Made by a program: the position numbers and the translations under genes. The notes beneath the pieces are model-generated. The model saw only the letters and a program-made list of their open reading frames with translations, had not been told where the DNA came from and did not search any database. From contig CANMOU010000005.1 in the NCBI GenBank assembly GCA_947499555.1, forward strand, positions 1-64,000: a stretch of DNA of 64,000 nucleotides. The letters are read 5' to 3'. The DNA comes from an uncultured Roseovarius sp. Lineage in GTDB: Bacteria > Pseudomonadota > Alphaproteobacteria > Rhodobacterales > Rhodobacteraceae. Below are positions 47,934-64,000 of the stretch, piece after piece. Numbering within the stretch: the first letter of the stretch is position 1; every line of letters starts with the position of its first letter.

Positions 47934-49496
47934 ATGACCAAACTTATCAGACCCCGCAGCGGTATGGATCGTCGTGCATTCCTGGGCACAGCGGCCGCCG
48001 GTGCTGCACTTGCCACCGGAATGGTGCCTAGCTTTGCTCGGGCTGAGCCCGAACGCGGCGGGACAATCCGCGTTGCAAAAGCGCATGGTGCCACCACCGA
48101 TACGCTTGACCCGCGCACAACCGACAATGGTTTCACCATTGCACTGGCCTACGGGATCCATGGCTTTCTAACAGGCGTTGCGGCAGACAGTTCCACCGAG
48201 CCGCAGATCGCAGAAAGCTGGGAGGCCAACGACGATGCGACCGTCTGGACTTTCAAGATACGTTCCGGCGTGACCTTCCACAACGGCAAGACCGTCACCC
48301 CCGAAGACGTAGTCGCATCCCTGCAGTTCCATATGGGCGAGGACTCGACCTCGGCGGCAAAACCATTGCTGGCTGCCATCTCGGACATGCAGGTTGAAGG
48401 CGACAGCGTGGTCTTCACGCTCTCCTCGGGCAGTGCGGATTTCCCGTTTACCTTCACCGACTACCATCTTGCGATTCTGCCCACATCCGATGACGGTGTC
48501 GCATGGCGCGACGGCATCGGGTGCGGGCCATACAAACTGGTCGAGTTCAACCCCGGCGTCGCGGCCATCGTCGAGCGCAATGAAAACGATTGGGACAGCA
48601 ATCGTGGTTTCTTTGACCGGATCGAGATGCTGTCGATCGTTGATCTTAATGCGCGGACTACGGCCCTCGTATCGGGTGATGTCCACGCTATTGACCGGCT
48701 TGACCCAAAAACAGTTGGCCTGATGGAGCGCAACACCAATGTCACGATCAATTCGGTCGCGGGAACACAGCACTATACCTTTGCGATGAACACCACGGTG
48801 GATCCCTATACGGATCGCAACATCCGTCTTGCGATGAAACACGCGATCAACCGCGAAGAGTTGGTCGAAAAAATCCTGTTCGGGTATGGATCGGTGGGCA
48901 ACGACCACCCCATCGGACGCGGTCAGCGATTCTTCAACAACGAGCTGGCGCAGACCACATACGATCCAGACAAGGCAAAATTTTATCTCAAGGAAGCAGG
49001 CCTCGACAGCCTCAGCGTTGAATTATCTGCCGCCGATGCCGCATTCGCCGGCGCGGTAGATGCCGCCGTTCTCTATCAGAACTCGGCCAAGGCTGCTGGG
49101 ATTGATATCACCGTCAACCGTGTGCCCAATGACGGATATTGGTCCGATGTCTGGATGAAAGACCCGTTGACGGCTGTCTACTGGGGCGGGCGCCCGGTCG
49201 AAGACGCTATGTTCTCGCTTACCTATCAAAGCGGTGCGGCCTGGAACGACACGTTCTGGAGCAATGCCCGATTTGACGAGCTTCTTGTGGCGGCCCGCGC
49301 CGAACTGGATGAAGACAAACGCCGTGAGATGTACTGGGAAATGCAAGAAATCCTCAACCAGGATGGCGGGCAGATCGTCCCGATGTTTGCAAGTTTCATC
49401 TTTGCCACAAGCAACGACATCTTGGTCAGTGACACCTTTTCCTCTCACTGGGACATGGATGGCGAACGCTGGATGGAAAGGTGGTCCTTCGCCTAG
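47934..49496 (+). CDS. ABC transporter substrate-binding protein (peptide/opine/nickel family, SBP_bac_5)
   Basis: A 520-aa periplasmic protein with a twin-arginine signal (DRRAFLGTAAAGAALATG, cleaved after about ARA). The body has the family's YDPDKAKFYLKEAGL-type and FHNGKTVTPEDVVASL segments. It should capture the pathway substrate for import. No permease or ATPase genes follow; the sequence passes into the defence island 866 bp later, so the rest of the transporter is lost, displaced or encoded elsewhere. Confidence 0.93.
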   Translation: MTKLIRPRSGMDRRAFLGTAAAGAALATGMVPSFARAEPERGGTIRVAKAHGATTDTLDPRTTDNGFTIALAYGIHGFLTGVAADSSTEPQIAESWEANDDATVWTFKIRSGVTFHNGKTVTPEDVVASLQFHMGEDSTSAAKPLLAAISDMQVEGDSVVFTLSSGSADFPFTFTDYHLAILPTSDDGVAWRDGIGCGPYKLVEFNPGVAAIVERNENDWDSNRGFFDRIEMLSIVDLNARTTALVSGDVHAIDRLDPKTVGLMERNTNVTINSVAGTQHYTFAMNTTVDPYTDRNIRLAMKHAINREELVEKILFGYGSVGNDHPIGRGQRFFNNELAQTTYDPDKAKFYLKEAGLDSLSVELSAADAAFAGAVDAAVLYQNSAKAAGIDITVNRVPNDGYWSDVWMKDPLTAVYWGGRPVEDAMFSLTYQSGAAWNDTFWSNARFDELLVAARAELDEDKRREMYWEMQEILNQDGGQIVPMFASFIFATSNDILVSDTFSSHWDMDGERWMERWSFA

Positions 49497-50361
49497 AATG
49501 ATCGCCGAAAGTATTTGAAGAAACTTCGGAGTTGGCTGCTTCGCGACTGGCTCCGAAGAGTACATTGGCCCCGTATTGGTAGGTGAGGTGGGCATCTCTA
49601 CAGCCACCCGGTGTCACTGGTTGTTATTGATTGAAGAAACAGCAGAGCAACGCTTTTGGTAGGCTTGATTGCAGCCAGATGTTACATTGGGACAGCTTTG
49701 ATTGACCGGTTTTCAATATGGATAAGAGATCTTAGAAGTATCCTCGTCATCATCAAAACGGTATCACTGCAGGTGCACAAATTTTCTGCATCAAAAATAG
49801 CTGTAGGCGCGTATCTTCACTTCGTCCGCGCCTTTCTTGTCTGACGTGGTTGCGGCGACAGTCGAGTTTCGCGAATGACCGGTCCAGGGAGATCCGCCGC
49901 ATAACTGCTGCGCGAACGCTGCAACCGCAGGAAAATGCTGCGTCAGCAATAGCCGCGACTGCACAAGTCCGGTTTGTCCGCACAGCAGACTCCAAACGAC
50001 CGGGTTTGAATGACAACTTTCGTGATAAGGGGGTCCCATTATCGTTACCGGCCTGAAGCCATTGTCGAAGCTTGGATGGGGCGCGTTCATCGAAGCTACC
50101 AATCTCAAAACAGTCGCGAGCAAATTGGACAGCCCGTGCGGTGGCATCCATGGTTATGTGACTGGGCGAGGGTTTTTTTCTTGAAGCCGTCCGTGCCAGA
50201 AGGACAACAGTTATCTGGATGCTATTTTTGGGTCGACTACGCCTCTCACGGCGGTTGGCAAGCAAGAACGCGCATTCTACAGTTGCTTGGGGGTTGTGAT
50301 TTTGGGGGACAAATTTTCAGTGGAAGTACGGGGTTGATTGTGCAGATGATGGGATGACTCT
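49497..50361. other. Non-coding boundary between catabolic and defence islands
   Basis: This 865-bp, more AT-rich stretch has no supportable gene. A perfect 8-bp inverted repeat (CTTCGGAG 49524-49531/CTCCGAAG 49551-49558) lies 28 bp after the binding-protein stop and may end its transcript, although no T-run follows. The position where permease genes would be expected and the change in base composition suggest an integration boundary. Confidence 0.45.
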
Positions 50362-51564
50362 TTGAGCTCTGGTACAGGCGATAAGTTCTCTGCGGGCCCA
50401 CAAGGTTTGGGTTATATCTACCAACCCCGGATGGCTCTCCTAAAGCTATTGGAAGAACCGGAACGAACCGGTGTCCTTATTGAGGGTCAAGATGACTTAG
50501 AATTCATTCTAGAAGATGGAAGTCGATCACTCGCGTCGCTAAAACACCGCGCGCATGGAAATCGCCTAACAGACCTCAGTACAGATTTCTGGAAATCAGC
50601 ACGGATATGGTTGGAAAGATACGCAGCATCAGGAAAATCAGTCAGCAATTTACGTTTCTTCCTATTTACAACGGGAGCAGTTGCCGAAAACTCTTTCCTC
50701 AAGCAATTCTTGCAAGATGCCGAATCTATGAAAGAGGGCAACGCACAGAGCTTTGAAATCGCACTCTCAGAAAGTAGCGCAAAGATCGTCGCGGAGGTGG
50801 AGACCAGTTACTTCGGTTTGAACGAAGAAGAGAGAACAGACTTTCTAGATAGAATAACGATCTTTGACGCGAGCCCACGCATAACGGAGATCCCAGACCT
50901 TCTTTCGGATAGGCTCTTGCGTACGGTTAGGCGTGAATATCGCCAATCTGTTATGGAACGCCTAGAAGGCTGGTGGAATGATCTAGCCATTCGGCAAATT
51001 GCGGGAGAAAGAACGGATCCGATCTATGGAGCGGAAGTATCTGACAAGTTATCCGCAATCGCCGAAGAGTATCGATCTGACAACCTGCCTATAACATTTG
51101 TGGGAAAGCAACCCGCTGGAATTGACCCGGACACTGACCAACGCCTTTTTGTAAAGCAATTGAGGCTCTTGGGTACTTCGGCAGACAGGATTCAATCAGC
51201 CATCATAGACTACTATCGGGCGTTCGAACAGCGATCGAGCTGGGCGCGCGAAGATCTTCTGATCCCAGGAGAGATGGACGAGTACGAAAACCGCCTAGTA
51301 GAAGAATGGAAACGGTATAAGGCCTTCGTGGTCGAGTCGTTAGGAACCGAAGATTCGGAGGAAAAGCTCTTGGCTGCTGGGAGAGAGATTTTTAGATGGG
51401 CAGAGTTCGAAACAAGCAATCTGAGGATTCGAGAACGCGTTACCGAGCCATACGTTGTCCGAGGTGCCTTTCATATACTCGCAAATAATCGCCCACGCCC
51501 ACGCGTGCATTGGCATCCAAAGTTTCTAGAGCGAGTTGAAGAGGTACTGGAGGGCGGTTCTTGA
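50362..51564 (+). CDS. ABC-three component system nuclease/effector protein (DUF4297/Mrr-like N-terminus)
   Basis: A 400-aa protein. The start is TTG at 50362 because an in-frame stop lies just upstream at 50347 and the first ATG would cut off the conserved GLGYIYQPRMALL motif. That GYxYQ opening followed by IEGQDDLEF…SLASLKHR (Asp44/45, Lys61) is the PD-(D/E)xK pattern of DUF4297/Cap4-type nucleases. The remaining part is the helical ABC-3C C-terminal domain. In these systems the ATPase is thought to license this effector on sensing invaders. It overlaps the middle-component gene by 4 bp. Base composition is more AT-rich than the catabolic island. Confidence 0.82.
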   Translation: MSSGTGDKFSAGPQGLGYIYQPRMALLKLLEEPERTGVLIEGQDDLEFILEDGSRSLASLKHRAHGNRLTDLSTDFWKSARIWLERYAASGKSVSNLRFFLFTTGAVAENSFLKQFLQDAESMKEGNAQSFEIALSESSAKIVAEVETSYFGLNEEERTDFLDRITIFDASPRITEIPDLLSDRLLRTVRREYRQSVMERLEGWWNDLAIRQIAGERTDPIYGAEVSDKLSAIAEEYRSDNLPITFVGKQPAGIDPDTDQRLFVKQLRLLGTSADRIQSAIIDYYRAFEQRSSWAREDLLIPGEMDEYENRLVEEWKRYKAFVVESLGTEDSEEKLLAAGREIFRWAEFETSNLRIRERVTEPYVVRGAFHILANNRPRPRVHWHPKFLERVEEVLEGGS

Positions 51565-52049
51565 AGCCTTGGACTGATCGACCGTTCGAGGTTCGGAACC
51601 TCTTCAATCCAGCGTTTTGTGGGATTTTGATTGCCCGAGCTTTGGATGAGCATCTAGAAACATCTGATCGGCCAATGCCTTATTCGCTGTCACTACTTGT
51701 ACTTCCATTGTGTCTACACAAAAATACCCGATACGTTCTGGCATCTTCGAACAGGAGCCACTTTCTAAAAGTCATTGAAGAACAGCCTCAATTGCTTGTT
51801 GGTTTCCCAGAGCGAGCAAGAAGCATGTTTCCATTCTGTCAAGAGGGCCTATCAGCCCTCGCAATTAAGGGTTGCCTTAAAGTCAACAAGGAAGGGGGCC
51901 TATCTCTTGTGCCCAAGACGATCAAAAAATCCATTAGCGGCACAGATGAAACCAAACAGTGTCAGCAAGTTGCAAAGTACCTCGGTAGACAATTTGCTCG
52001 AATTTCAGATCGCACAACCATTTATGCATCGCTAGGGGTTCGACCGTGA
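51561..52049 (+). CDS. ABC-three component system middle component
   Basis: A 162-aa protein beginning with TTG or nearby (KPWTDRPFEVRNLFNPAF). This NLFNPAF…LLARAL-like opening, here with ILIARALDEHLE, is characteristic of the small middle component placed between effector and ATPase in ABC-3C systems. The middle (SLLVLPLCLHKNTRYVL) and winged-helix-like C-terminus are consistent. Overlaps of 4 bp on both sides show tight coupling. The molecular role is unknown, possibly an adaptor between ATPase and effector. Confidence 0.82.
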   Translation: MKPWTDRPFEVRNLFNPAFCGILIARALDEHLETSDRPMPYSLSLLVLPLCLHKNTRYVLASSNRSHFLKVIEEQPQLLVGFPERARSMFPFCQEGLSALAIKGCLKVNKEGGLSLVPKTIKKSISGTDETKQCQQVAKYLGRQFARISDRTTIYASLGVRP

Positions 52050-53980
52050 AAATTGCCTCCATTCATATTTTTAGCCTCGCCGGTGATCGGAGAGACCTTA
52101 CTTTCAACGTTGAAGGCTTAAACATTATCACCGGCCGTTCATCCACTGGCAAATCTGCCCTTTCAGAAATCATTGAGTATTGCATGGGCCGCTCAACATT
52201 CAACATTCCAGATGGCGTTATAGAGGAAAACGTCTCATGGTATGCTGTCATTTTTCAGTTTCAGGGAGAACAGGTTCTTGTAGCAAAACCTGCTCCCAAA
52301 CCAGGAGCATCCGAGTGTAGCACGACCATGGTTCGGCGCGGCCAGCGGGTTGAACCGCCCACCTATAGTGAACTCAAAATCAATGATAACGACGCTGGGG
52401 TAGAAGCTCTTTTGTCGCGCTTGCTAGGTATTCCTGAAAACATGACTGATGTCGCGCCGGAGCATTCGCGAGCAAGTTTTGATGCAAATATTAGTCACAC
52501 GTTCTACTACTTGTTTCAAAAACAAACGTTTGTAGCAAGTAAGGACCAGTTGTTCTATCGCCAAAACGAAGATTTTCAGCCCCAAGCAATACGGGATACA
52601 TTCCCCATTCTGTTTGGAGCGCGCTCAGCAGAAAAGTTCAAGTTGACAGCCGAGCTGAGATCGCTTCAACGACAGTCTCGGATCAACCAGAAGAGTCTGG
52701 ATCAGGCTAAATTGGATGTGGAGCAATCAACCGATCGCAGCTTGAGCCTTATCTCCGAGGGAAGATCTGTTGGAGTCTTTCGCGATGAACCAGACAGCGA
52801 AACACCTCTGATCGACTTCCTTCGGGCTGCATCTGACTGGCGTCCGACGCCCGTTCCCGAAGAGGATGGGAGTCGCATTTCACTGTTAGAAGACGACTTA
52901 GTTCGCCTTCGTGAGGACAGACGCGGCATCCGTAAACAGATCGACAGCGCGAAAAAGTTCTCGGTACGCGCTTCAGATTTCGAATTTGAAGCCCATGAGC
53001 AGAGAGATCGACTTGCCTCAATTAATTCGCTTCCGCGCGACGATGATGGTGGTTGGCAATGGCCCTTTTTGAATGAAGAACACCAATTCGACACGGAAAT
53101 TGCCAAAGCTCTGCTGGCAGAGCTGTCGTCTCTAGACGAAGAGATGGCGATCATTGAAACGGAGAAGCCGCAGCTTGAAGCTTACATCATTGAGAAGGAG
53201 GCGGAGATTGATCAAATCAGTCAGACGATCGCCGCCAAGGAGGAAGAGCTCGTAGCGGCAATATCGGCAAGCGAACAGATTTCGGAGCTTGGCAACCGAA
53301 ACACGGCTGCAGCCCGAGTGGTCGGTCGCATCAGCTTGTTCTTGGAGAACTTCATTTCAGATGAAGAGCTCCTACGTCTAGAAAGCACGCAATCGCGACT
53401 TGAAAACCGAATTGCTGCTTTAGAAGCTCAAATCGGGCGCGACGATGGCCAAGATAGGCTGCTCTCCGTTATCAATGGAATTTCATCAATGATATCCGGC
53501 TATGTTACCGACTTGGGCGGCGAGTTCGGTCATTTTCCGGCGAGGCTCGATCTTCGGCATCTAACGGTTGTTTTTGACCGACCAGACCGCCTCACCTACA
53601 TGGAGCGGACTGGCGGTGGCGAAAATCATCTGGCTTATCACCTTGGAGCATTGCTGTCTTTGCATCGTTATGCTGCGAAGGGGAACCATCCCATTCCAAG
53701 GTTTCTACTGATTGATCAGCCTTCGCAGGTCTATTTTCCAAGTGAGGATATATATAAGTCAGTAGGTGGCTCGATAGAAAGAACCGAGACCGACGCTGAC
53801 ATGGAAACCGTGCGAAGACTGTTCAAACTATTGTTTGAGTACACACGGGACCACGTTCCAGGCTTCCAGATTATTGTTACAGAGCATGCAAATCTGAGAG
53901 ACGATTGGTTCCAATCAGCTCTGGTGGAAAACCCATGGACGAAGCCTCCCGCGCTAGTTCCGGAGGAATGGATACGCTAA
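52046..53980 (+). CDS. ABC-three component system ATPase (DUF3732, SMC/Rad50-like)
   Basis: A 644-aa coiled-coil ATPase. Walker A is GRSSTGKSA (30-38). A long coiled coil spans roughly 190-480 (EEMAIIETEKPQLEAYIIEKEAEIDQ region). The C-terminal lobe has a signature-like TGGGENHLAYHLG and Walker B in RFLLIDQPSQVYFP. This is the DUF3732 family, the ATP-dependent sensor of ABC-3C anti-invader systems described by comparative genomics (Krishnan, Burroughs, Iyer and Aravind). It starts 4 bp inside the middle-component gene and completes the three-gene operon. Confidence 0.88.
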   Translation: MKIASIHIFSLAGDRRDLTFNVEGLNIITGRSSTGKSALSEIIEYCMGRSTFNIPDGVIEENVSWYAVIFQFQGEQVLVAKPAPKPGASECSTTMVRRGQRVEPPTYSELKINDNDAGVEALLSRLLGIPENMTDVAPEHSRASFDANISHTFYYLFQKQTFVASKDQLFYRQNEDFQPQAIRDTFPILFGARSAEKFKLTAELRSLQRQSRINQKSLDQAKLDVEQSTDRSLSLISEGRSVGVFRDEPDSETPLIDFLRAASDWRPTPVPEEDGSRISLLEDDLVRLREDRRGIRKQIDSAKKFSVRASDFEFEAHEQRDRLASINSLPRDDDGGWQWPFLNEEHQFDTEIAKALLAELSSLDEEMAIIETEKPQLEAYIIEKEAEIDQISQTIAAKEEELVAAISASEQISELGNRNTAAARVVGRISLFLENFISDEELLRLESTQSRLENRIAALEAQIGRDDGQDRLLSVINGISSMISGYVTDLGGEFGHFPARLDLRHLTVVFDRPDRLTYMERTGGGENHLAYHLGALLSLHRYAAKGNHPIPRFLLIDQPSQVYFPSEDIYKSVGGSIERTETDADMETVRRLFKLLFEYTRDHVPGFQIIVTEHANLRDDWFQSALVENPWTKPPALVPEEWIR

Positions 53981-54188
53981 CATCGTCTGGCTTTGGCTAG
54001 ACTGGGCAATTTGCCCCCTAAGTCATCAGTTGGAGAATGCCGCAGCTTTAGTTCAATGTAATCATCGTGCGAGTATAGTTTGGTGTTGAAATGGTACCTA
54101 AACGGTTGCTCCGCCCAGCCTCTTATATAGACGGTCTCAATTTCAAAGGTTTTTGAAACCTGTTTGGGGCTTCGACCTTTGCAGTTAC

Positions 54189-54767
54189 CTAAAGAAAATC
54201 GCGCCTTTCTCTTACTCGTGCGGCAAGCTTGGGCATCCCTTTTGCTGTGAGGTCGAGAACAAACTCTGACGGACTGAACGTTGGGTTACTGTAGTGAGAT
54301 CGGAGGTCACGCAGTACGCTCATGGATTCTGCAGCATATAGATCGAACGTTCTTGCTAGGAACTCGTCAGCTTCAATAGCTTCGATGTCAAACTGCTCCA
54401 ACTCAGCCGGCGGGAAATCCCGTGTGTTGTCTGTAATGATGTGTTGCGCGCCACACTGGATAGCCGCGGCAAGGACGTGTTTGTCGTTTTCATCAGGCAA
54501 AGCGAGTCCAGCTTCTAGATGTTCAAAATCAGCAACCAAAGCTTCAGGGAAGACTTCCTTCATTTTCGCTTGCTGCGCTTGGATACTTTGCTTCAGGTCT
54601 GGACGTGCGCCGAGCAAGTTGCCGGTCCATTCGTAGAGGATGCGATCCGTCCAACGCGCACGAAAAAGCCCTGCGTCGTAGAAACGCAAGAGCACATCTC
54701 TTTTGCGAAATGGGTAAAGGACGTTTGCATCTAGCAGTACGACGAAACGGTCGGCAACGTGACTCAA
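54189..54767 (-). CDS. PIN-domain ribonuclease toxin
   Basis: A 192-aa PIN-domain protein. Acidic residues for metal-dependent RNA cleavage are Asp13 (LLDANVLYPF), Glu46 (YEW), Asp95 (DENDKHVLAAAI) and Asp113 (IITDNTRDFP). The last 70 residues form an extra helical tail. The upstream gene ends inside its start (4-bp overlap), giving an antitoxin-first toxin-antitoxin operon. It is convergent with the ABC-3C operon, separated by 208 bp without a gene. Confidence 0.88.
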   Translation of the reverse strand: MSHVADRFVVLLDANVLYPFRKRDVLLRFYDAGLFRARWTDRILYEWTGNLLGARPDLKQSIQAQQAKMKEVFPEALVADFEHLEAGLALPDENDKHVLAAAIQCGAQHIITDNTRDFPPAELEQFDIEAIEADEFLARTFDLYAAESMSVLRDLRSHYSNPTFSPSEFVLDLTAKGMPKLAARVRERRDFL

Positions 54768-55219
54768 TTGGCGTCAAACTCCTGGCCGAGGTCTGCCAAC
54801 TCATCGAGCGCCTTTTTGCGCCTGCTATCTCTCTTTGCTTTGTAGGTCATCAAATCCTCAAACATAACCCGTCTATGAGACCCGACGGGAACGTGTGGTA
54901 TCTCGTTCTCCTTCAGCAGCTTGCTGAGGAATGGGCGAGAGACGTTTAAAATATCGGCGGCTTGCTGCGTTGTCAGCATCGCACCAGTAGGCACCAAAGT
55001 AACCATATTGCCCTGAGCAATATGGCCAAGAAGGTCGACGATGAGATCGGCAATCGCCGGCGCAAGATGTACTTGATCACCATTCATACCATTGAACTGC
55101 AAGCTCCCATGTTCAGCAACGGCCTGAGCCAACGCGCGCGACGCTTCAGCCGCACTCGCAACTTCGTCACGTGTCGGCAGTCTCTGGGTCAGATCTGTCA
55201 CGTTGGCCGGTTGTGGCAT
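54764..55219 (-). CDS. Helix-turn-helix (excisionase-type) antitoxin of the PIN toxin
   Basis: A 151-aa protein starting MPQPANVTDLTQ. The start at 55219 is supported by GGAGGG 4-5 nt upstream; an alternative ATG at 55234 lacks a site. The C-terminal half is a MerR/excisionase-like DNA-binding domain (LTTQQAADILNVSRPFLSKLL, then IPHVPVGSHRRVMFEDL). The charged tail probably inhibits the PIN protein. Tandem repeats upstream (55282-55299) could be its operator. Confidence 0.85.
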   Translation of the reverse strand: MPQPANVTDLTQRLPTRDEVASAAEASRALAQAVAEHGSLQFNGMNGDQVHLAPAIADLIVDLLGHIAQGNMVTLVPTGAMLTTQQAADILNVSRPFLSKLLKENEIPHVPVGSHRRVMFEDLMTYKAKRDSRRKKALDELADLGQEFDAN

Positions 55220-55424
55220 GGTTCCCTCCGTCATGCTTTGCTGAAGGTTTTATAGCGAAAACCGTTGTTGCGCACAACCGAAATAAGTGTAATAAGTGTA
55301 ACAAAGGTAAATACAGGCCGATTCCCAAAGACCTTCTGAGCGCAGTACGCCTTGATACACACTATGCTGGTATCCATGCTGCGCACAGCACTAAATGTTG
55401 AGGCCGCGATACGGAGCACGCATC
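55220..55424. promoter_or_regulatory. Divergent promoter region between toxin-antitoxin and CBASS operons
   Basis: A 205-bp region between divergent starts. It contains a perfect 9-bp tandem direct repeat AATAAGTGT (55282-55290, 55291-55299) and a short inverted repeat GTTGT/ACAAC (55264-55278). Both lie closer to the antitoxin gene and may be operator sites for it. The CBASS start has GGAG at about 55412. Confidence 0.55.
55282..55299. repeat. Tandem direct repeat AATAAGTGT x2
   Basis: Two adjacent perfect copies, 63 bp upstream of the antitoxin start; candidate binding site for the antitoxin. Confidence 0.6.
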
Positions 55425-56663
55425 ATGCCACTTGACGCAACATCCCCTGGCCTCGACGCCCTTCTGCTGGCGACGGCCCTACAATTGGAACTTAGCGACC
55501 GTGATCTGCGCGTCGCCGACAAGCGCTATCTGCACATTCCCGAGCACCTGCAGCGACCCACCAGTCGGCTACGCAAGCTGATGGACAGTGCCCGCGTATA
55601 CCCACAGGGGTCGCGCGCAATCGGTGCGACAATCGTCAACGGCACCGACGAAGACCGCTTCGACCTCGACGCCATCCTTGAATTTTATCGACCCCAAGGT
55701 TGGACCCCGCGCGATGTCCTTGATGAGCTGTTCATCGCCTTCCAAGGGTTCCCAGATGTTAAAAAAATAGAGCGCTGCACCCGATGCATTCAGCTCCAGT
55801 TCGCATTCATGCATTTGGACGTCACACCAATGGATCCGCACCGTGAGCCAAGACATGAGCGCGTGGGTCAGATCTTTCACAGCCCGGATCGTGGGCCCGA
55901 TGAAACGCACGATGTGAACCCCTTCGGCTTCATCCAATGGTTCAAGGCGAACGTGGGCCCGGCAAATAAAGTGTTCCTTGACCAAGTGGCCGAGACGCGC
56001 TCCGGCCTCGAGCTGACGGGACGCCTTGAGCCGGGAACGCTCTACGCCGATGCGGACATCGATGATCTGCCTGACCCCATTGATCCGATCCGTGACACGC
56101 CCCAAGTCATCGCGCTCAAGCTGATGAAGCGGTATCTCAACCGGAGCTACGCCAACCGAGACCTGAAGCGGCCCGTGTCGATTTATTTGTCGAAGATCGC
56201 CGCCCTTTTACCGGCGCATCCCTATGGCCTCTGCGCACAGCTCGAAGGCTATGCCGGGGAACTCAACCGCCGTATGACCCACGCGATCGAAACGGGTCAG
56301 TGGCCCGAAGAGCGCAATCCGGAGTTTCGTCCGGAGAACTTCAATGACCGCTGGCCACCCACCGTTCATGACATGCGAGTTTTCAGCAGCGACCTGAAAC
56401 ACCTGATCCGTGAGCTTTCAAGAGCACGGCACTCTGAGCTGATCGACATTCAGAAAATCTTCGATGACCTCTTTGGTGAGCGTATCACCGAGAAGGCAGT
56501 TCGCTCTTATGCCGATGGCCTAGCAGGTGCCAGTTCTGCGAGCAGCTACGAGCGCGGGAAAGGATTTGTGGCCTCGCCAGGCCTTCTGCGGCCAGCGGAT
56601 ACCTCGCAACCAACCACTTCACAGGCAAGACCGCACCATTTTCACCCCGGGAAATTGAAGTGA
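55425..56663 (+). CDS. CBASS cyclic-oligonucleotide synthase (CD-NTase, cGAS/DncV-like)
   Basis: A 412-aa nucleotidyltransferase. The ATG at 55425 is chosen over 55395 because GGAG lies about 9 nt upstream. Catalytic features are the QGS motif (61-63 in YPQGSRAIG), the metal-binding pair Asp80/Asp82 (RFDLDAIL) and the third Asp132 (MHLDVTP). It would make a cyclic di- or trinucleotide upon phage infection. It is followed by E2-like and HNH-SAVED genes with 4- and 8-bp overlaps, a complete short type II CBASS operon. The disordered C-terminus would be the natural target for the E2-like protein. Confidence 0.92.
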   Translation: MPLDATSPGLDALLLATALQLELSDRDLRVADKRYLHIPEHLQRPTSRLRKLMDSARVYPQGSRAIGATIVNGTDEDRFDLDAILEFYRPQGWTPRDVLDELFIAFQGFPDVKKIERCTRCIQLQFAFMHLDVTPMDPHREPRHERVGQIFHSPDRGPDETHDVNPFGFIQWFKANVGPANKVFLDQVAETRSGLELTGRLEPGTLYADADIDDLPDPIDPIRDTPQVIALKLMKRYLNRSYANRDLKRPVSIYLSKIAALLPAHPYGLCAQLEGYAGELNRRMTHAIETGQWPEERNPEFRPENFNDRWPPTVHDMRVFSSDLKHLIRELSRARHSELIDIQKIFDDLFGERITEKAVRSYADGLAGASSASSYERGKGFVASPGLLRPADTSQPTTSQARPHHFHPGKLK

Positions 56664-57148
56664 GCCTCAAGCGCCGGAAACCAAGGTCTCCCCATGGCCA
56701 GCTTAACCGCATGACCATGCGCTGGCCTGACTTGGCGGCACGCGTTCTCTCCGATGGACCGAGCATTGTCTGGCGCGGACCATTGCGTGGATTCCAGATG
56801 GAGTATCAGGTTCTTGTGCATTGGCCCTGGCTGGCAAACCCAAACACCCCACACGTCTTCGTACTGGACCCTCAGATCAGACCGCGACCCAGCGGGCGCT
56901 TCGAAGACATCCCGCATCTGAACTTCGACAGCGCAAACCCAGTCGAATCTGCCCTGTGCTTGTTCGACCCAGATGATGGGGAGTGGAACTCAACCATGCT
57001 CATTGCTGATACAACAGTTCCCTGGGCATCAGAATGGCTTCACCACTATGAGCTCTGGCATCTTGATGGCGTTTGGCGTGGTCCCAATGCGCCCGGACCA
57101 ATTTCCGTTGGGGAGATGCGTCAGGCTGACGAGCTGACTGATGCCTGA
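56660..57148 (+). CDS. CBASS E2-like ubiquitin-conjugating-type protein
   Basis: A 162-aa protein beginning with GTG inside the synthase stop (GTGA). The E2-like active Cys is Cys100 in ESALCLFDPDDGEW, followed by the family's TTVPWASEWLHHYELWHLDG block. There is no E1 or JAB domain, as expected for short type II CBASS, in which an E2-like protein alone primes the synthase by covalent linkage. It overlaps the effector gene by 8 bp. Confidence 0.88.
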   Translation: MSLKRRKPRSPHGQLNRMTMRWPDLAARVLSDGPSIVWRGPLRGFQMEYQVLVHWPWLANPNTPHVFVLDPQIRPRPSGRFEDIPHLNFDSANPVESALCLFDPDDGEWNSTMLIADTTVPWASEWLHHYELWHLDGVWRGPNAPGPISVGEMRQADELTDA

Positions 57149-58286
57149 GAAACGTGGCCCTACTACTCCGACGACGAAGATGATCGTCTGGGGCCGCGCA
57201 GCCGGTCGGTGCCAGTTCCGTAATTGCGGGAAACGACTGGATCAGGACTTGATCGCGGGCAAGACAAGCCGAAACAACGCCTACGTTGCGCACGTCATAG
57301 CCGCAGCGCCGGGAGGTGAACGCGGTGATCCCGAATTGTCCTACGCGCTGTCTGACGACCCGGAAAATCTGATGCTGCTCTGCGATGAGCACCACAGGCT
57401 AATCGATGACCCATCAAATCTGGCGACCTATACTGTCGATGTGTTGATGGAGATGAAACGGGAGAATGAAGAGCGGACGGATCGTTTACTGTCGGTAAGA
57501 TCAGCGAAGCGAACCACAATTCTCCAAGTCAGCGCACCCATCGGCGACAACGAGACAGCTGTGCCGTTTGATGACTGCGCCACTGCAGCCGCAGCAAACA
57601 CCACCTTGGCAGATCGTCATCCTATCGAGATCAAGCTGCGAGGCATGCGCCACAAGGACAGTGATCCAGCTTACTACCCAACTGAGATTTCGAGCCTCCG
57701 GAAACGGTTTGATGTGGACGTCCGATGGAGGTTTGAGGAGCGTGAAATCGAGCACCTGTCGGTCTTCGGACTGGCCCCGATCCCCATCCTAATCGAACTC
57801 GGGCGGTTGATCTCGGACATCTCCGACGCGACGGTATTCATGCGGCACCGCGAGCCGTCTCCCGCGTGGACTTGGCCAAACGATGGATCGCCAGTTTCAT
57901 TCGAAGCAGTCGAAGGCACCAAGAGTGGCAATGCGGTAGCTCTGAAACTCTCGGTTTCGGCAGAAGTGAGCGATGATCGCATACGTGCGGCGGTCGGGGA
58001 CGATGTGTCGATTTGGGAGATCCGATCCTCGGTGCTCGGCACCACCGTTCTGCGCAATCAAGCCGATCTGACGGGGTTTAGAGAAACCGTCGGACGCACG
58101 TTCGACAGGATCAAGGCGACCCACGGCGAAGAGACTAACCTGATGGTCTTCCCTGCGGTCCCGACAGCTTGCGCCATCGAGTTCGGTCGTGTCTGGCAAC
58201 CGAAGGCGCATCCGCCATTCACGATCTACGACCAGATTGCGGGTACAGGATTCGTTGCCAAACACACGATCGCGACAGAGCATTGA
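57141..58286 (+). CDS. cap5: CBASS effector Cap5 (HNH endonuclease-SAVED)
   Basis: A 381-aa effector. The N-terminal HNH nuclease has CxxxxC (Cys24, Cys29), catalytic His51 (VAHVIAAAPGG), Asn76 and CDEHH (Cys81, His84). The SAVED ligand-binding domain spans about residues 155-375 (EIKLRGMRHKD, then IPILIELGRLISD). On binding the cyclic nucleotide, Cap5 proteins oligomerise and degrade dsDNA, killing the infected cell. Its position as third gene of the operon is canonical. Confidence 0.93.
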   Translation: MPEKRGPTTPTTKMIVWGRAAGRCQFRNCGKRLDQDLIAGKTSRNNAYVAHVIAAAPGGERGDPELSYALSDDPENLMLLCDEHHRLIDDPSNLATYTVDVLMEMKRENEERTDRLLSVRSAKRTTILQVSAPIGDNETAVPFDDCATAAAANTTLADRHPIEIKLRGMRHKDSDPAYYPTEISSLRKRFDVDVRWRFEEREIEHLSVFGLAPIPILIELGRLISDISDATVFMRHREPSPAWTWPNDGSPVSFEAVEGTKSGNAVALKLSVSAEVSDDRIRAAVGDDVSIWEIRSSVLGTTVLRNQADLTGFRETVGRTFDRIKATHGEETNLMVFPAVPTACAIEFGRVWQPKAHPPFTIYDQIAGTGFVAKHTIATEH

Positions 58287-58320
58287 AGACCTAGTGGCTA
58301 TCTTCGGACAACTTGACTGA

Positions 58321-58440
58321 CGTCGATTCAATGCCCTCGCAGGCTACGCGAGGCATCCGAAAATCACGCTCATCACCACGGAACTGGATTGGTTCGCCGA
58401 ACCGCCGCATACTATTCCTCTACATGGCAAGATCAATTGA
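58321..58440 (+). pseudogene. Possible gene relic between CBASS and the cyclase gene
   Basis: The frame RRFNALAGYARHP…KITLITTELDWFAEP reads very much like protein, is open for 39 codons and ends at TGA 58438-58440, but has no start codon and a stop right before it. It may be the 3' remnant of a lost gene, or chance. Confidence 0.25.
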
Positions 58441-58467
58441 TGAGGGAAATTCAGCAGGGTAAAGAGA

Positions 58468-60366
58468 ATGCCAATGACGGAATTGAATTGGACAGACCTG
58501 GTTAGATCCGATGCTGTTAGTTGGAACGAAGCACGTGCGGCGCGACCAAAGGATCGGCCGGACCTCAGTCACCAAGAATTATTCGATATTGATTTTCGCG
58601 GGTTCGACTTCGGAAACGCAATACTGGACGATGTACGATTTGAGGGATGCGACCTGACGGGCTGTAGCTTTGTCTCTGCGACATGCCAGCGGATGAGTGC
58701 TGTTGACACAAAACTGGGGAAAGCGGACTTCTCTCGCGCAAATCTCAACCACGCAGATTTCAGCAACGGTCTCTTCAAGGGTGGCAAGTATCGAGGAGGT
58801 GTAGCCGTAATCGACGACGACGTCGGCATAGACCTTAGAGAGGCAAAGTTTCAGAACACTAAAATGAGCCACGGAAAATTCTGGAAGGCTGACTTCCGGG
58901 GTGCTGCCTTGAGCAAGGCCGTGTTGAAAGGTGCTGATGCAAGGTCAGCTGACTTCCGGGGCGCTGAGATTTCTGCCTGCAACTTTTCCCAATCGAACCT
59001 GACCGGTGCGTTGTTGCAATCGGTCAATCTAACCAAGTCGAAGTTCAACGGGACAAATTTCCGCCGGGCCTTTCTCGAAAAATCGATCTTCATTGGGACT
59101 GAGCTGCAAGGCGCTGTGCTGCGCAACGCGATAGCAAATGGCGCTTCATTTTCAGGCTGCGACTTGCGCTCCGTTGACTTGAAGGGTGGTCAGTTCAGTG
59201 GCGCTGATTTCAGTGAGGTGATGGCTGAGGGCGTAGACTTCTCGAGAACAAACCTCTGCGGAAGTCGGATGGCGAGCGCTGACCTGACCCGAGCCAACCT
59301 CATTGAGGCTATTCTAGATGCGGCTGAGATATCGGGAGTGCGATTGTGGGAGGCACAGATCTCGGGATGGTCAATCAAGGGTGTTGTTTGCACAGAAGCC
59401 TACTGGGATCGAGAAGGTACTGAACCGACATTCTACGAGATTGGGGAATTCGAGAGGCAGCACGGTGATGCTGAACGTATTGAGCTCATCTACCGCGATG
59501 GCATAAGTCGAGTTGAGGTCAACACGCTACCGCTCTTGGTCCAGCATTTAGAGGGTCTGCATGAGGGCTGCCTTCTCAGATTGAAATCAATCGAAGACGC
59601 TCCAGGTGGATCGAAGGTAACTATCGTGATCGATGAAGCAGGTGATCTAGACGCGTCAGCCCTGAAAGTCACGATCCAGGAGGAGGCCGGCCAGCTGCAG
59701 GTAGCTCTGAAACGGCTAGAACAGGAAAAACGTCTACGCGAGATGGTTGAGCGTGATCAGCAGGCGCTGCAAAACAAGGTCTTTCCGATATTGCTCGAGA
59801 TGGCGAGCAAGGATGTCGTGCGAAACCAGGGGCCAAGTCACAGCACCGCAGCGGCCCTTTTCATGGATTTGACCGGGTTTTCAAAGCTTGTCGAGGCTGA
59901 AAGAGCGGAGGCTCTTGCAATGTTGCAGGGGCTTTTGAAGCCGTTGCTTGCGAGGTGGAACGCTGCGCATCCCAATATGTGGGGCGATGCGCTTCGGGCA
60001 ACTTTTGAAGACGTGAACGACGCGCTTGGATGTGCGTGCGCAATGCAAGCCGTTTTGGGCGCTGCTGACCTAAAGCTTCGCATCGGTATGGATTTCGGTG
60101 AGATCGTCGAAACCTTCAATCCGGTCTTGGATGAGCCAGATATCCAAGGCGACATTGTGAACATGGCTGCACGACTAGAACCTTTGGCTCCGGTCGGCGG
60201 TGTGCTGGTCACGGACAATTTGCGCTTCAACGAGGCGGTTGATCCCGCCCGCTTTAAATTTGAACCCACTGAGGTTTCAATGAAGAAGGCAGTTGGCGAC
60301 ATTCCAGCGGGAGCTTCGATAACGTGTTATGTGGTATCTACAAACCAGGAATTACTAGTAGCCTGA
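58468..60366 (+). CDS. Pentapeptide-repeat protein fused to a class III nucleotide cyclase domain
   Basis: A 632-aa protein. Residues about 35-300 form pentapeptide repeats (A(D/N)xSx pattern: KADFSRANLNHADFSNG, SADFRGAEISACNF, TRANLIEA) that build a right-handed beta helix. A middle region (315-430) of unknown fold and a short helix (QLQVALKRLEQEKRLREM) follow. The C-terminal class III cyclase (about 455-632) has metal Asp467 (FMDLTGFS) and Asp507 (MWGDAL), transition-state Asn565 and Arg569 (IVNMAARLE). The Lys that reads adenine in adenylate cyclases is Asn, so base choice is unclear. Next to CBASS, it may be a Pycsar-like signalling protein with its own sensor or effector part; no separate effector follows. 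Confidence 0.85.
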   Translation: MPMTELNWTDLVRSDAVSWNEARAARPKDRPDLSHQELFDIDFRGFDFGNAILDDVRFEGCDLTGCSFVSATCQRMSAVDTKLGKADFSRANLNHADFSNGLFKGGKYRGGVAVIDDDVGIDLREAKFQNTKMSHGKFWKADFRGAALSKAVLKGADARSADFRGAEISACNFSQSNLTGALLQSVNLTKSKFNGTNFRRAFLEKSIFIGTELQGAVLRNAIANGASFSGCDLRSVDLKGGQFSGADFSEVMAEGVDFSRTNLCGSRMASADLTRANLIEAILDAAEISGVRLWEAQISGWSIKGVVCTEAYWDREGTEPTFYEIGEFERQHGDAERIELIYRDGISRVEVNTLPLLVQHLEGLHEGCLLRLKSIEDAPGGSKVTIVIDEAGDLDASALKVTIQEEAGQLQVALKRLEQEKRLREMVERDQQALQNKVFPILLEMASKDVVRNQGPSHSTAAALFMDLTGFSKLVEAERAEALAMLQGLLKPLLARWNAAHPNMWGDALRATFEDVNDALGCACAMQAVLGAADLKLRIGMDFGEIVETFNPVLDEPDIQGDIVNMAARLEPLAPVGGVLVTDNLRFNEAVDPARFKFEPTEVSMKKAVGDIPAGASITCYVVSTNQELLVA

Positions 60367-61494
60367 GATGTCCGTCCAGTCGCTCTTCTGAGGATCGAAC
60401 AAGCGTTCAGGAACAGGTTTGGATTTGCCGTTAGCGTCGCGATCAAAGCGGTTGAGTACCACAACAGAACCCTTCTCGGAAAACAGGCCGGCCCAATGGG
60501 CCAAGACATTGTCGCGAACTGATTGATCGGAGTACCGGCCAAGTTTCGCATCCTTTGGGAGCACGTCAGCTTGCATCAGATCATAGAATCCATCGAGCAG
60601 AATTGAGCCAAGCTCATAGCCCCTCGAAGTAAGGACGTATCGATCGATCGGTGTCTGTTTTCTCAAGCCATCGACATCGTAATCGCCTGCAGTGATACGT
60701 TTGATACGCGGGATCATCTCGCGGAGGTATTCACCAGTATTCCAGGCGATCTTCTCTGGCTGGTCCTTAAATACTTGAGCATAGGGTTGCCAGAAGCTGA
60801 AAGTGTATCCGGCCAAGCCCAAACCGGCTTCTTTCTCTTGCATGCGCTTGAGAAAGCCAATGTCCTCAAGGGCCAGAGACTCAAGCGCATTTACGTTGAA
60901 GCTGATTTCCTCATCACCGTGTGGATCGACATCCATGATCTGGCCCATGGCGACGTGGAGTTGCAGGGCGCGTTGGAAAGTGGCTGCCTGGTGCGGTTCA
61001 AGCAGGCGGAGCGCATCAAGAGTTGCCTTTGAGATACTCGGGCACCCTTCGGTTGCCTGAGTAGATAATATCCGGGACCAAAGCTGCCTCACACCGTCGG
61101 ACGAGATGTTTTGTGCGTATTGGATGAACGCTTCCATCCAATCATCTTCGATTGCGCGAGGATCACCGTCTCCGGCTTCCGCCAGCGCATCATGCACGAT
61201 GACCTCCAAGTTTTCCTGGCGCTTGATCTCCTGAGTTATCAATCGCTGGCCCGCACGTTCCCGCAACTGCTTTGGATCATGCTCTATAGTCTTGAGCTCT
61301 GCCTTGTGACGTCGGCGCATGTCCTCCGCTTCTAGCTCGGCGGCTGCGGTCTTGAGGATCAGCTCTACTTTGACGTCTGCTTCTGCGCGCCCGAGTCTTC
61401 GAACCTTGGTCGGTTCGTAAAGAGTTCCTGTCGCGGCCGCGACTTTGTCGAGGATCACTTCTGCAATTTTTCCCAACCCTGCCAGGTCTTCCAT
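60355..61494 (-). CDS. DUF2806-family protein
   Basis: A 379-aa protein starting MEDLAGLGKIAEVI at 61494 (AAAGGA upstream); a longer frame to 61668 has no ribosome site. The N-terminal helical segment LGKIAEVILDKVAAATGTLYEP and the following charged helices, then a WMEAFIQYAQNISSDGVRQLWSRIL segment, fit DUF2806, seen sporadically in accessory regions. No catalytic motif is clear. It converges on the cyclase gene, with the two 3' ends overlapping by 12 bp. A defence role is suggested only by location. Confidence 0.75.
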   Translation of the reverse strand: MEDLAGLGKIAEVILDKVAAATGTLYEPTKVRRLGRAEADVKVELILKTAAAELEAEDMRRRHKAELKTIEHDPKQLRERAGQRLITQEIKRQENLEVIVHDALAEAGDGDPRAIEDDWMEAFIQYAQNISSDGVRQLWSRILSTQATEGCPSISKATLDALRLLEPHQAATFQRALQLHVAMGQIMDVDPHGDEEISFNVNALESLALEDIGFLKRMQEKEAGLGLAGYTFSFWQPYAQVFKDQPEKIAWNTGEYLREMIPRIKRITAGDYDVDGLRKQTPIDRYVLTSRGYELGSILLDGFYDLMQADVLPKDAKLGRYSDQSVRDNVLAHWAGLFSEKGSVVVLNRFDRDANGKSKPVPERLFDPQKSDWTDISGY

Positions 61495-61685
61495 ATCTTG
61501 TCCTTTCCGGCTGAGGTTTTGCCCGTGCCTTGCAGCCGGACACGCAACAGGTCCTGGGCTTCTCAATAATTTTCGAATTGGTTCAAAAATTGACCCTGAA
61601 CCCAGTTGTAGCAGCAAAGGCTCGGACTTGAGGACAAGAGACAGGGGCTCGCGAACACGATAAGCCAATAAGACATATTCCTATC

Positions 61686-62279
61686 TTAGCTTTCCGTGAG
61701 ACCAGCATCCATTAATTGTTCACGGTCTGGCAAGTCTTGCAGCGACTGTAAATCGAAGGCGACAAGGAATTGCTCCGTTGTCACGTACGTGTAGGGTGCT
61801 CCACGCTGCGGCGAGCGCGGGCCGGTTCCGATGAGACCGCGTGCGTGCAATCGCCCGATCAGATCGCGGCTAATCTCTTTGCCGAAGATATCCTTAAGCC
61901 CGTCCCGGGTGATAGGCTGGTGATAGGCAATGGCGGCCAACACAGCGACATCGTATTCGCGCAAATCGAGCGTCTGATCGCCCACATCCGCCGCTGCCCA
62001 GATTGCCATGGAGTAGGCCGGCCGTGTCCGCAGCATCCATCCGCCTGGCACCTTCGCAATCTCAAAGGACCGGCCTTCAAGATCGGCCGCAAGATCGTCG
62101 ATGAGCAGATCGACCGAGGCCCCCTGCCCTACCACGCGCGCGAGATCTTCCCGCGGCACGGGCGAGGCAGAGGCGAAGAGCACGGCTTCGATCCGGCGCA
62201 TCCATTCGCGCCAGCGCAGATCGGGCGGCAGGTCCTCCAGCTCCCTATCGAAGTCGGTTTCGGCGTGGTCCTTCGCCAT
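61686..62279 (-). CDS. scpB: ScpB-like segregation/condensation protein (accessory copy)
   Basis: A 197-aa ScpB homologue with the paired winged-helix pattern (RIEAVLFASASPVPREDLARVVG, and LAAIAYHQPITRDGLKDIFG). ScpB normally partners ScpA and SMC in chromosome condensation. Here it stands alone with DUF1403, an arrangement I associate with roseobacter/rhizobial plasmids beside integrases. It probably serves the element rather than the chromosome. The DUF1403 gene lies 3 bp upstream in the same direction. Confidence 0.9.
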   Translation of the reverse strand: MAKDHAETDFDRELEDLPPDLRWREWMRRIEAVLFASASPVPREDLARVVGQGASVDLLIDDLAADLEGRSFEIAKVPGGWMLRTRPAYSMAIWAAADVGDQTLDLREYDVAVLAAIAYHQPITRDGLKDIFGKEISRDLIGRLHARGLIGTGPRSPQRGAPYTYVTTEQFLVAFDLQSLQDLPDREQLMDAGLTES

Positions 62280-62282
62280 CGC

Positions 62283-63173
62283 TCAGATCCCGTAGAGCCG
62301 GAAGGTGTCGCGCCCGGTCAGTTCGCGTACGGCGCCGAGCTCCACCAGGCGGTCGCAGAACCTGCGTGCTGCGCGATCGGAGCGCAGCGATGCCATCGCA
62401 GCCGGGGCAACCGCGTCCCGGCTCAGGAACAGCGCAACCGCCTCATCAGCGCCCTTCGCCCGGAGCTTCGGCGCAACCTCTTTCAAGCGGGTCGTACGCC
62501 GAGCAAGATCGGTGACCTCCCGCGTTGCCTCGGTTGCAGCCGCCAAAATCGCCCGATAGCACGCCAGGCGCAGGTCATCGCCGGACTTTCGCAAATCGTC
62601 GCGCTTCAAACCAAGGGCCAGGAGCGGGTGGACATGGCTCCACCCGAGCGTCTGCGCCAAAGCCGCGTCCGCCAGGATCAACGCCGACGCGGGATCGCGT
62701 GGTCGATCAGCGAGAACCGCCTTCAGCACGGACGCAGTGCGCGCGACCGGCGCCCCCTGCCCCGCATCCAGCCACGATGCGATCTGGTCCATGTCGATCT
62801 CGGGCAATGCCCGGTGCAGCGCCGTTATCGAGGCCGGCCGCTCCACCGCGCGTTGCCAGGAGAGATAAACCTCACCCGCCGGACCTGGACTGTCGCCAGG
62901 CTGCAGGAACGCCGCCGCATCGCGCAGCTCCGAAGCGCGTTCCGGGCGTCCCTGATGCGTCACACAGGTCTCCGCGGCGCGCATGGCTAAACGCGCCCGC
63001 AGCAAGGTCTGGGGGACGCCCTCGTGGCTTAACACAAGATGCAGATGGCTCAGAGCCGCCCCCGACAAAAACGCAACATCTTCAGGGACATCAGACCGCG
63101 CCGAGGTGACCCAGGACGGCATCCGGGGTAGGCTCTTATGGTTGTCGCTGAAGTCCTGGCGGGCATAGGTCAT
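62283..63173 (-). CDS. DUF1403-family protein
   Basis: A 296-aa, almost entirely helical protein. DUF1403 features are ALSHLHLVLSHEGVPQTLLRARLAMRAAE in the first third and LILADAALAQTLGW with DLRLACYRAILAAATEA later. Function unknown. It is consistently a neighbour of ScpB in alphaproteobacterial mobile elements. It is the first gene of the DUF1403-ScpB pair and divergent from the integrase at 63548. Confidence 0.88.
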   Translation of the reverse strand: MTYARQDFSDNHKSLPRMPSWVTSARSDVPEDVAFLSGAALSHLHLVLSHEGVPQTLLRARLAMRAAETCVTHQGRPERASELRDAAAFLQPGDSPGPAGEVYLSWQRAVERPASITALHRALPEIDMDQIASWLDAGQGAPVARTASVLKAVLADRPRDPASALILADAALAQTLGWSHVHPLLALGLKRDDLRKSGDDLRLACYRAILAAATEATREVTDLARRTTRLKEVAPKLRAKGADEAVALFLSRDAVAPAAMASLRSDRAARRFCDRLVELGAVRELTGRDTFRLYGI

Positions 63174-63547
63174 GCCACAACACTAGTCTCTCGCGGCGCT
63201 TTCGTCCACAATATGATGTGTAAACCGCCCCACTCTGCGGTTCTTTTCTATGTCCAATAAGTTTGCCTTATCGGACGTAAAAATATAGGCTCAGGAAAAC
63301 ACGATTTGCTTCACGTTTCATCGGTGGATTCACATTTCATGGCTGGATTTCTTGAGTTTCAGAGACTTGCCTGGCGAGAATGGCCGGAGATCGTGAGATT
63401 CTGGAGCGGTATTTGTGAGACTGGACGAACCGGAATTCATGAGACTGGCAGTCCGGCGCACTTTCTGGTCCTACCCTGTGCTCTCTCGCCGAGCTCAGTG
63501 TACTCGTCACGGCCAACTGCCACCACCTCAACGAGAGCGATAGAGCC
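63174..63547. promoter_or_regulatory. Divergent region with degenerate TGAGA-CTGG repeats
   Basis: A 374-bp region between DUF1403 and the integrase. Three spaced repeats lie at 63393-63409, 63415-63433 and 63439-63456, each of the form TGAGA(TT)CTGG followed by a CGG within about 10 nt, at 22-24-bp spacing. A weaker related segment lies at 63362-63375. They may be integrase arm-type sites or an operator. AT-rich sequence near 63250-63300 probably holds promoters. Confidence 0.5.
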
Positions 63548-64000
63548 ATGAATGCCGATGATGGTCCTATAGCCCTGCCATCCCATGTTGCGGGATCCGG
63601 CACCCTTGACCGGCTGGTCGACACCGCCCGTGACTACGCCAAAGCCTCGACCGCGGACAACACCAACAAGGCCTATGCCGCCGACTGGAAGCATTTTGCG
63701 CGCTGGTGCAGGATGAAAGGCGCGGAGCCATTGCCTCCCTCGCCGGAGATGATTGGCCTTTACCTGACGGACCTGGCGACACCGACAGGCCTCTCCGTCA
63801 GCACCATAGACCGGCGTTTGTCGGGTCTTGCCTGGAATTATGCGCAGCGCGGCTTCACATTGGATCGCAAAAACCGTCACATCGCCACCGTGCTGGCCGG
63901 CATCAAACGAAAACACGCCCGTCCACCGGTGCAGAAGGAGGCGATCCTGCCAGAAAACATCCTCGCCATGGTCGCCACCCTGCCCTTCGATATACGCGGG
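63548..64000 (+). CDS. Tyrosine-type recombinase/integrase, N-terminal part (runs off the window)
   Basis: From ATG 63548 the frame is open for 151 codons to the window end. The sequence is a core-binding (SAM-like) domain: STADNTNKAYAADWKHFARWC, then IGLYLTDLA and TIDRRLSGLAWNYAQRG, linked to the start of the catalytic domain (IKRKHARPPVQKEAILPE). Catalytic residues lie beyond the window. It is unrelated at the N-terminus to the amber-broken integrase at 28206. Together with DUF1403 and ScpB it forms a mobile-element boundary module. Confidence 0.9.
   Translation, partial: MNADDGPIALPSHVAGSGTLDRLVDTARDYAKASTADNTNKAYAADWKHFARWCRMKGAEPLPPSPEMIGLYLTDLATPTGLSVSTIDRRLSGLAWNYAQRGFTLDRKNRHIATVLAGIKRKHARPPVQKEAILPENILAMVATLPFDIRG

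Follow-up and report, generated by a model that had tools for sequence, protein, structure and literature searches.

Introduction

Pycsar is a mononucleotide-cyclase defence system in which the pyrimidine cyclase PycC and a cNMP-binding receptor (PycTM or PycTIR) are separate proteins (PMC11224242). In two reports on conflict systems, cNMP cyclases appear among the outputs and pentapeptides among the partners, and bacterial TRADD-N domains are joined to pentapeptides or to cyclases (Kaur 2020, PMC7159879; 2021, PMC8195603). These systems, built from modules such as cNMP cyclases, pentapeptides, NACHT and TRADD-N, pair a constant module with swapped outputs, like the arrangement proposed below, but the accessible text of PMC7159879 and PMC8195603 does not describe a protein with the order pentapeptide, middle segment and cyclase.

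Here, we analysed such a gene in a window of 64,000 nucleotides (the whole stretch of DNA under study) from an uncultured Roseovarius sp. The pentapeptide/class III cyclase fusion that it encodes is genuine and rare. As in Pycsar, a class III-type mononucleotide cyclase is found in a defence context; the window cyclase differs in being fused to pentapeptides and in having no cNMP-binding receptor on its contig. Membership of Pycsar was rejected on the missing receptor and on the lack of any PADLOC match; PADLOC, whose library may lack PycC models, assigned the fusion protein to no family at E 0.01. No description of a pentapeptide-repeat/class III cyclase protein was recognised in full-text literature searches, which were judged from their listings and cover few subscription papers and preprints.

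Results

Domain architecture of the fusion protein

The product runs from pentapeptide repeats through a middle segment and a predicted long helix to a class III cyclase, and its parts are located as follows.

58468–60366, + strand: whole fusion gene, an ORF with an ATG start encoding 632 residues (pentapeptide repeats, middle segment, class III cyclase)
58468–58563, + strand: N-terminal cap, residues 1–32, with a WNxxR motif, defined by motif comparison
58564–59367, + strand: pentapeptide repeats, residues about 33–300, defined by Pfam and a register score, with a weak-register gap at about residues 95–120
59362–59466, + strand: end of the beta-helix, residues 299–333, with GWxIxGxxC and YxxGEF motifs
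59470–59643, + strand: middle domain, residues 335–392, from low-confidence models and remote homology to cyanobacterial plasmid proteins
59653–59823, + strand: long predicted helix, residues 396 to about 452, from AlphaFold models; a candidate coiled-coil transmitter
59839–60363, + strand: class III nucleotide cyclase domain, residues 458–632, with D467, N503, D507, D558, N565 and R569

Tandem five-residue repeats with a hydrophobic centre, the defining feature of a pentapeptide repeat protein, were found in the fusion protein, and Pfam matched them to Pentapeptide (6e-44) and Pentapeptide_4 (3e-32). The five-residue register over residues 31–310 gave a mean windowed score of 0.84, versus a mean of 0.52 and a maximum of 0.62 in 1000 shuffles. 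The Pfam matches, register score and residue positions bear out the sequence-only reading that about 265 repeat residues precede a middle domain and a cyclase. Pentapeptide repeats form, as a family, a right-handed beta-helix. The WNxxR cap at its start is common to the window protein, a same-order relative described below (P0006) and 3 of 13 cyanobacterial proteins, and was missing from all 20 further pentapeptide ORFs examined at 16 loci in relatives.

Two AlphaFold models, which share one protein and are not independent, had mean pLDDT values of 47 and 49. Both showed, at low confidence, two short strands, a helix, two strands and then one long helix before the cyclase; good confidence was reached by the long helix alone (residues 396 to about 452), and in the second model only. 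By analogy with class III cyclases in general, this helix may act as a coiled-coil transmitter and the cyclase may dimerise.

Some pentapeptide proteins mimic DNA, and Qnr and MfpA models matched the repeats, in line with a reading in which the beta-helix is itself the effector. It would then target gyrase or some other DNA-binding protein by mimicking DNA, under the control of the cyclase or its nucleotide. However, the scores were far under the family cut-offs (QnrC 59 versus 500 bits; MfpA 48 versus 360), and other pentapeptide models scored higher (HetL, 108 bits). We therefore consider an effector helix improbable, and gyrase inhibition by the fusion protein would be a guess. Separately, a match to Hailong HalA at residues 10–104 scored 37 bits, where the cut-off is 250, and was read as cross-matching of the repeats; nothing relevant on Hailong HalA was seen among the papers listed.

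A single same-order relative and rarity among sampled genomes

At locus L005, genome G153, which belongs to the same class as the window genome and to another family, encodes P0006, a 576-residue protein with the order repeats, middle and cyclase seen in the window protein. From residue 167 onwards (late repeats, middle and cyclase), the two proteins align over 488 columns and are 23% identical, and P0006 has no equivalents of N565 and D558. Its gene is flanked by GDH and aldo/keto reductase genes on one side and by CysS and LeuA-like genes on the other, and PADLOC (E 0.001) found no family for P0006 or for five neighbours tested. The gene has a G+C content of 56% versus 62–71% for six nearby metabolic, RNA-modification and repair genes, suggesting that it was also acquired. 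Elsewhere near this relative, a 44% G+C gene with no Pfam match (L057:14412-16273) adjoins an M78 peptidase gene; the six other genes measured around it have 62–71% G+C, and it could be a second mobile insertion.

The proposal that the fusion is a single-protein defence system was not supported, as PADLOC gave no match and metabolic genes surround P0006, the one relative with this domain order. Searches of the sampled genomes for the same order led to this relative alone.

The architecture was rare in every sample. In a whole-protein search of 195 relatives, middle-segment matches were confined, among the matches listed, to the window genome and G153. Residues 305–464 matched 2 of 385 genomes of the class, and a middle-segment alignment query matched 1 of 398 genomes of the phylum. 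A query of middle segment plus cyclase matched 1 of 394 genomes of the family (E 1e-12) and 5 of 391 of the order (1e-10), four of these in the cyclase part only. Relatives may have been missed, because few candidates were scored per genome, the samples of 195, 385, 398, 394 and 391 genomes overlap and the thresholds differ. A single-protein scan of the genome contigs yielded one locus, a cyclase-only match. Viral contigs gave no match to the whole protein, the middle segment or the cyclase, and three cyclase loci with the cyclase alignment. Among the plasmid and phage records matched by tblastn, none of 525 and none of 181 covered 80% of the whole protein, none of 311 covered 80% of residues 300–632, and none of 22 covered 80% of the G153 protein. 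Relatives of the window genome and rhizobial plasmids held many class III cyclase matches that did not extend into the repeats.

The cyclase domain and its putative product

The Pfam Guanylate_cyc model scored the whole fusion protein at 2e-4 and 21.4 bits, slightly under its 21.9-bit cut-off, and the excised cyclase domain at 26.5 bits, above it. The two metal aspartates (D467 and D507) and the Asn/Arg pair of the transition state (N565 and R569) that mark a class III cyclase are all kept at aligned positions, as had been read from the sequence, and the base residue D558 is also present. A cyclase profile search returned 3mr7 (8.5e-43), 1ybt (4.6e-20), 7r65 (3e-6), the uridylate cyclase 8jsz (2e-4) and 6yii (0.019), a ranking that favours 3mr7 because the profile includes two other cyclases. 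With the window sequence alone as query, 8jsz, 7r65 and 6yii were absent from the 16 matches up to E 1. The 7r65 and 6yii chains are PycC proteins, and the fusion cyclase appears by sequence closer to 3mr7 and Rv1900c than to these structures. The nearest catalytic domains by sequence belong to other class III cyclases, namely 3mr7, 1ybt and rhizobial and rhodobacterial adenylate/guanylate cyclase proteins; the six such frames examined differ from the fusion in having other partners, TPR-like by eye, and no pentapeptides.

At the base-recognition Lys position, the fusion protein has N503, with its partner D558 kept. In a BLAST alignment of 13 related cyclase loci, this position is Lys in 11 and Asn in L065, which deviates at two further sites; L001 deviates as well, with Glu in the BLAST and His in the MAFFT alignment. 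Asn is likewise aligned with N503 in the solved structure of an adenylyl cyclase, 1ybt (LipJ/Rv1900c). The suggestion that Asn in place of Lys points away from cAMP was thus not supported; N503 does not exclude cAMP and would leave the cyclic nucleotide product undecided.

The exchange of a Lys present in 11 of the 13 loci, together with the missing N565 and D558 equivalents in the G153 protein, could also mean that the cyclase is catalytically weak or inactive and is kept as a nucleotide-binding or dimerisation module, the beta-helix being the working part. PMC7159879 describes several cNMP cyclase domains that are fused to vWA in conflict systems as inactive. Nevertheless, the window protein keeps the expected residue at every other catalytic position, and 1ybt/Rv1900c has Asn at the place of the Lys. 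Moreover, Ma1120 is an adenylyl cyclase with Ala replacing the transition-state Asn (PMC4215837), so non-canonical residues are not decisive for activity. A weak or inactive cyclase therefore seems unlikely to us.

The middle segment and its cyanobacterial relatives

No match to Pfam, PADLOC or NCBIfam models was obtained for the middle segment, and a search of solved structures gave weak matches (best 0.016, PslE). Its description as an uncharacterised domain was thus borne out. It is not unique, though: L005 has a relative, and plasmid proteins of cyanobacteria have remote ones. In tblastn with the G153 protein, matches to plasmid proteins of Nostoc and Calothrix (H104, H105 and H107) continued beyond the repeats, and the cyanobacterial version returned 38 plasmid records, every one cyanobacterial, with products annotated as pentapeptide proteins and a few hypothetical proteins. 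These proteins resemble the window protein in having pentapeptides followed by a related middle segment. Three of them (WP_104902434.1, WP_045874987.1 and WP_179069629.1) share its WNxxR cap, but their C-terminus carries no cyclase by Pfam. In the 13 cyanobacterial proteins examined, the middle segment is followed by helical, often Asn/Gly-rich stretches, and no cyclase was found, by Pfam in three and by eye in the other ten. In L051, L052 and L054, the C-terminus beyond the middle segment has GDNN-type repeats (for example QGDNNRAVQGDNNQAVLGD), reminiscent of amyloid-like repeats.

Alignment by hhalign of the two alphaproteobacterial sequences with the 13 cyanobacterial middle segments gave a probability of 83.5 and a score of 39.8; in 60 column shuffles these values never exceeded 4.9 and 22.6. 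An HMM of the 13 segments missed the window protein with default filters and gave E 0.34 for it and E 0.14 for P0006 with filters off. The kinship is accordingly remote, because this HMM barely matches either protein.

A TRADD-N identity for the middle segment was tried and dropped. The hallmark of that domain is a turn, joining strands 2 and 3, in which Ser comes directly after a tiny residue (PMC8195603). Read by eye, only the window protein has GGS at this turn, which is GNT in L005 and GGA, GGV, DGA, DGI, DGV or charged in the 13 cyanobacterial sequences; we do not claim TRADD-N membership because the hallmark is not conserved among relatives. As to the RRM-like fold of TRADD-N, the segment shows strands and one helix in low-confidence models only.

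A NACHT gene lies within about 2 kb at 4 of the 13 cyanobacterial loci (L028, L029, L048 and L052), and a MoxR ATPase gene about 2.8 kb from the pentapeptide gene in L053. PADLOC, applied to three of the NACHT neighbours, found no family for two and a weak mad8 match for the third. As the cyanobacterial relatives have other C-termini and NACHT genes nearby in 4 of 13 cases, the pentapeptides and middle segment may be a mobile chassis on which the cyclase is one exchanged output.

Genomic neighbourhood

The genes and the gap directly around the fusion gene are as follows.

55395–58286, + strand: CBASS operon, with CD-NTase (55395–56663), E2 (56660–57148) and HNH-SAVED effector (57141–58286)
58287–58467, + strand: gap of 181 bp that separates the fusion gene from the CBASS effector gene
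60355–61668, − strand: convergent DUF2806 gene, overlapping the 3' end of the fusion gene by 12 bp

PADLOC recognised the CBASS cyclase (2.5e-201), E2 (3.8e-44) and endonuclease-SAVED effector (1.9e-136), which confirmed that CBASS lies directly upstream of the fusion gene; the measured gap agrees with the 180 bp first read from the sequence. No sigma-70-like or terminator-like pattern was reported in the gap, and Rfam had no match in 50000–64000. Two short inverted repeats, CCTCGC...GCGAGG and GGTTCGCCGAACC, were seen by eye at 58335–58403, with no T run after them; they are possible terminator or operator elements.

The shared strand and the distance of 181 bp would suit an extra component of the CBASS operon. 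Against this, a Cereibacter sphaeroides plasmid carries CBASS genes in the same order with no fusion gene after the SAVED gene, and base composition differs: the fusion and DUF2806 genes have a G+C content of 53–54%, the CBASS genes 57–58%, so the composition of the fusion gene is closer to that of its convergent neighbour. Because of this difference, the fusion gene need not have arrived with CBASS, and a role as CBASS component is very improbable. G+C content is 46–50% in the LmuA–LmuB block, 51–54% in the PIN/HTH genes, 57% in a solute-binding gene at 47934, and 60–67% in scpB, DUF1403 and two metabolic genes. Against these last four, the 53% of the fusion gene is a foreign composition.

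Upstream of the fusion gene, 50362–53980 holds a run of three genes (LmuA-like, ABC-3C middle component 3, LmuB-like), which by sequence is a defence operon of the Lamassu/ABC-three-component type near CBASS. A toxin-antitoxin-like PIN-domain/HTH gene pair lies at 54189–55234. Pairs that look alike by eye stand beside scpB in two congeners (L070:814-1940 and L074:933-1969), and in L074 the pair is followed by a CBASS operon, the same as in the window.

Downstream of the DUF2806 gene, scpB and DUF1403 form a pair (61686–63173) of a type found on rhodobacterial plasmids, and the contig is called plasmid-like because of it. Many congeners have close copies of this pair plus a distant scpB homologue. 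The stretch on the scpB side carried defence-type proteins by PADLOC in 5 of the 8 congeners fetched (of 11 with returned loci), a count from 10 proteins hand-picked at those five loci and without a background control: AbiEii in L069, SoFic in L071, Argonaute and a partner in L072, a UvrD-type helicase and AbiEii in L073, and a CBASS cyclase in L074. L068, L070 and L075 were left out of the PADLOC scan, and one L068 protein was given to Pfam; the L068 site has a Mu-type transposase gene. Judged by gene content, the scpB flank is a plasmid cargo site that often carries defence genes. The expectation that the fusion gene has no partner effector agreed with the six PF00027 cNMP-binding matches in the genome, all on contigs other than that of the fusion gene (C5).

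The same cargo site, with its Mu-type transposase gene, would also suit a common accessory enzyme of signalling. In this reading, the beta-helix binds proteins, the cyclase responds to stress or to a metabolic cue, and the defence surroundings reflect plasmid hitch-hiking. The position of the G153 relative beside GDH, aldo/keto reductase and CysS genes, and the many repeat-free class III cyclase matches in relatives and on rhizobial plasmids, favour such a role. On the other hand, both genes of this architecture are lower in G+C than the surrounding core genes, and the architecture is missing from nearly all sampled relatives, unlike a housekeeping regulator. We regard this signalling role as a serious contender, nearly as likely as defence.

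Discussion

Our preferred reading, held tentatively, is that the fusion is a horizontally acquired, probably plasmid-borne sensor-cyclase, most likely used in conflict with mobile elements, either in defence or in self-protection of the plasmid. The capped pentapeptide beta-helix and the middle domain would serve as an input or scaffold chassis, and the long helix would set the geometry of the cyclase homodimer and relay the signal. Upon activation, the C-terminal class III domain would make a cyclic mononucleotide, most likely cAMP. This product would be read by cNMP receptors that serve the cell in general, not by a dedicated neighbouring protein, and the proteins behind the six cNMP-binding matches on other contigs could respond to it. 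The analysis shows the domain order, the catalytic residues, the rarity in the samples, the relatives, the foreign base composition and the defence neighbourhood, whereas dimerisation, activity, product, trigger and the defence role are inferred. Defence is the best single guess because of the gene location and the NACHT neighbours of the cyanobacterial proteins, and the neighbouring genes make it plausible.

A bolder extension of the sensor-cyclase reading, which we regard as rather doubtful, is that the capped beta-helix and middle domain form a mobile sensor chassis of cyanobacterial plasmids, where it sometimes has NACHT partners, and of alphaproteobacteria, with a swappable output. The window protein would then be the variant with a cyclase: a defence enzyme that, in a single chain, would detect an invader itself and release large amounts of a cyclic mononucleotide into the cell as second messenger. 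A shared chassis with different outputs would, if true, provide a testable logic for the unassigned cyanobacterial pentapeptide proteins. Known mononucleotide-cyclase defence uses separate cyclase and receptor proteins (PMC11224242), whereas here a candidate sensor part is fused to the cyclase; such a fusion, if it is indeed a sensor, would reveal directly what these enzymes sense.
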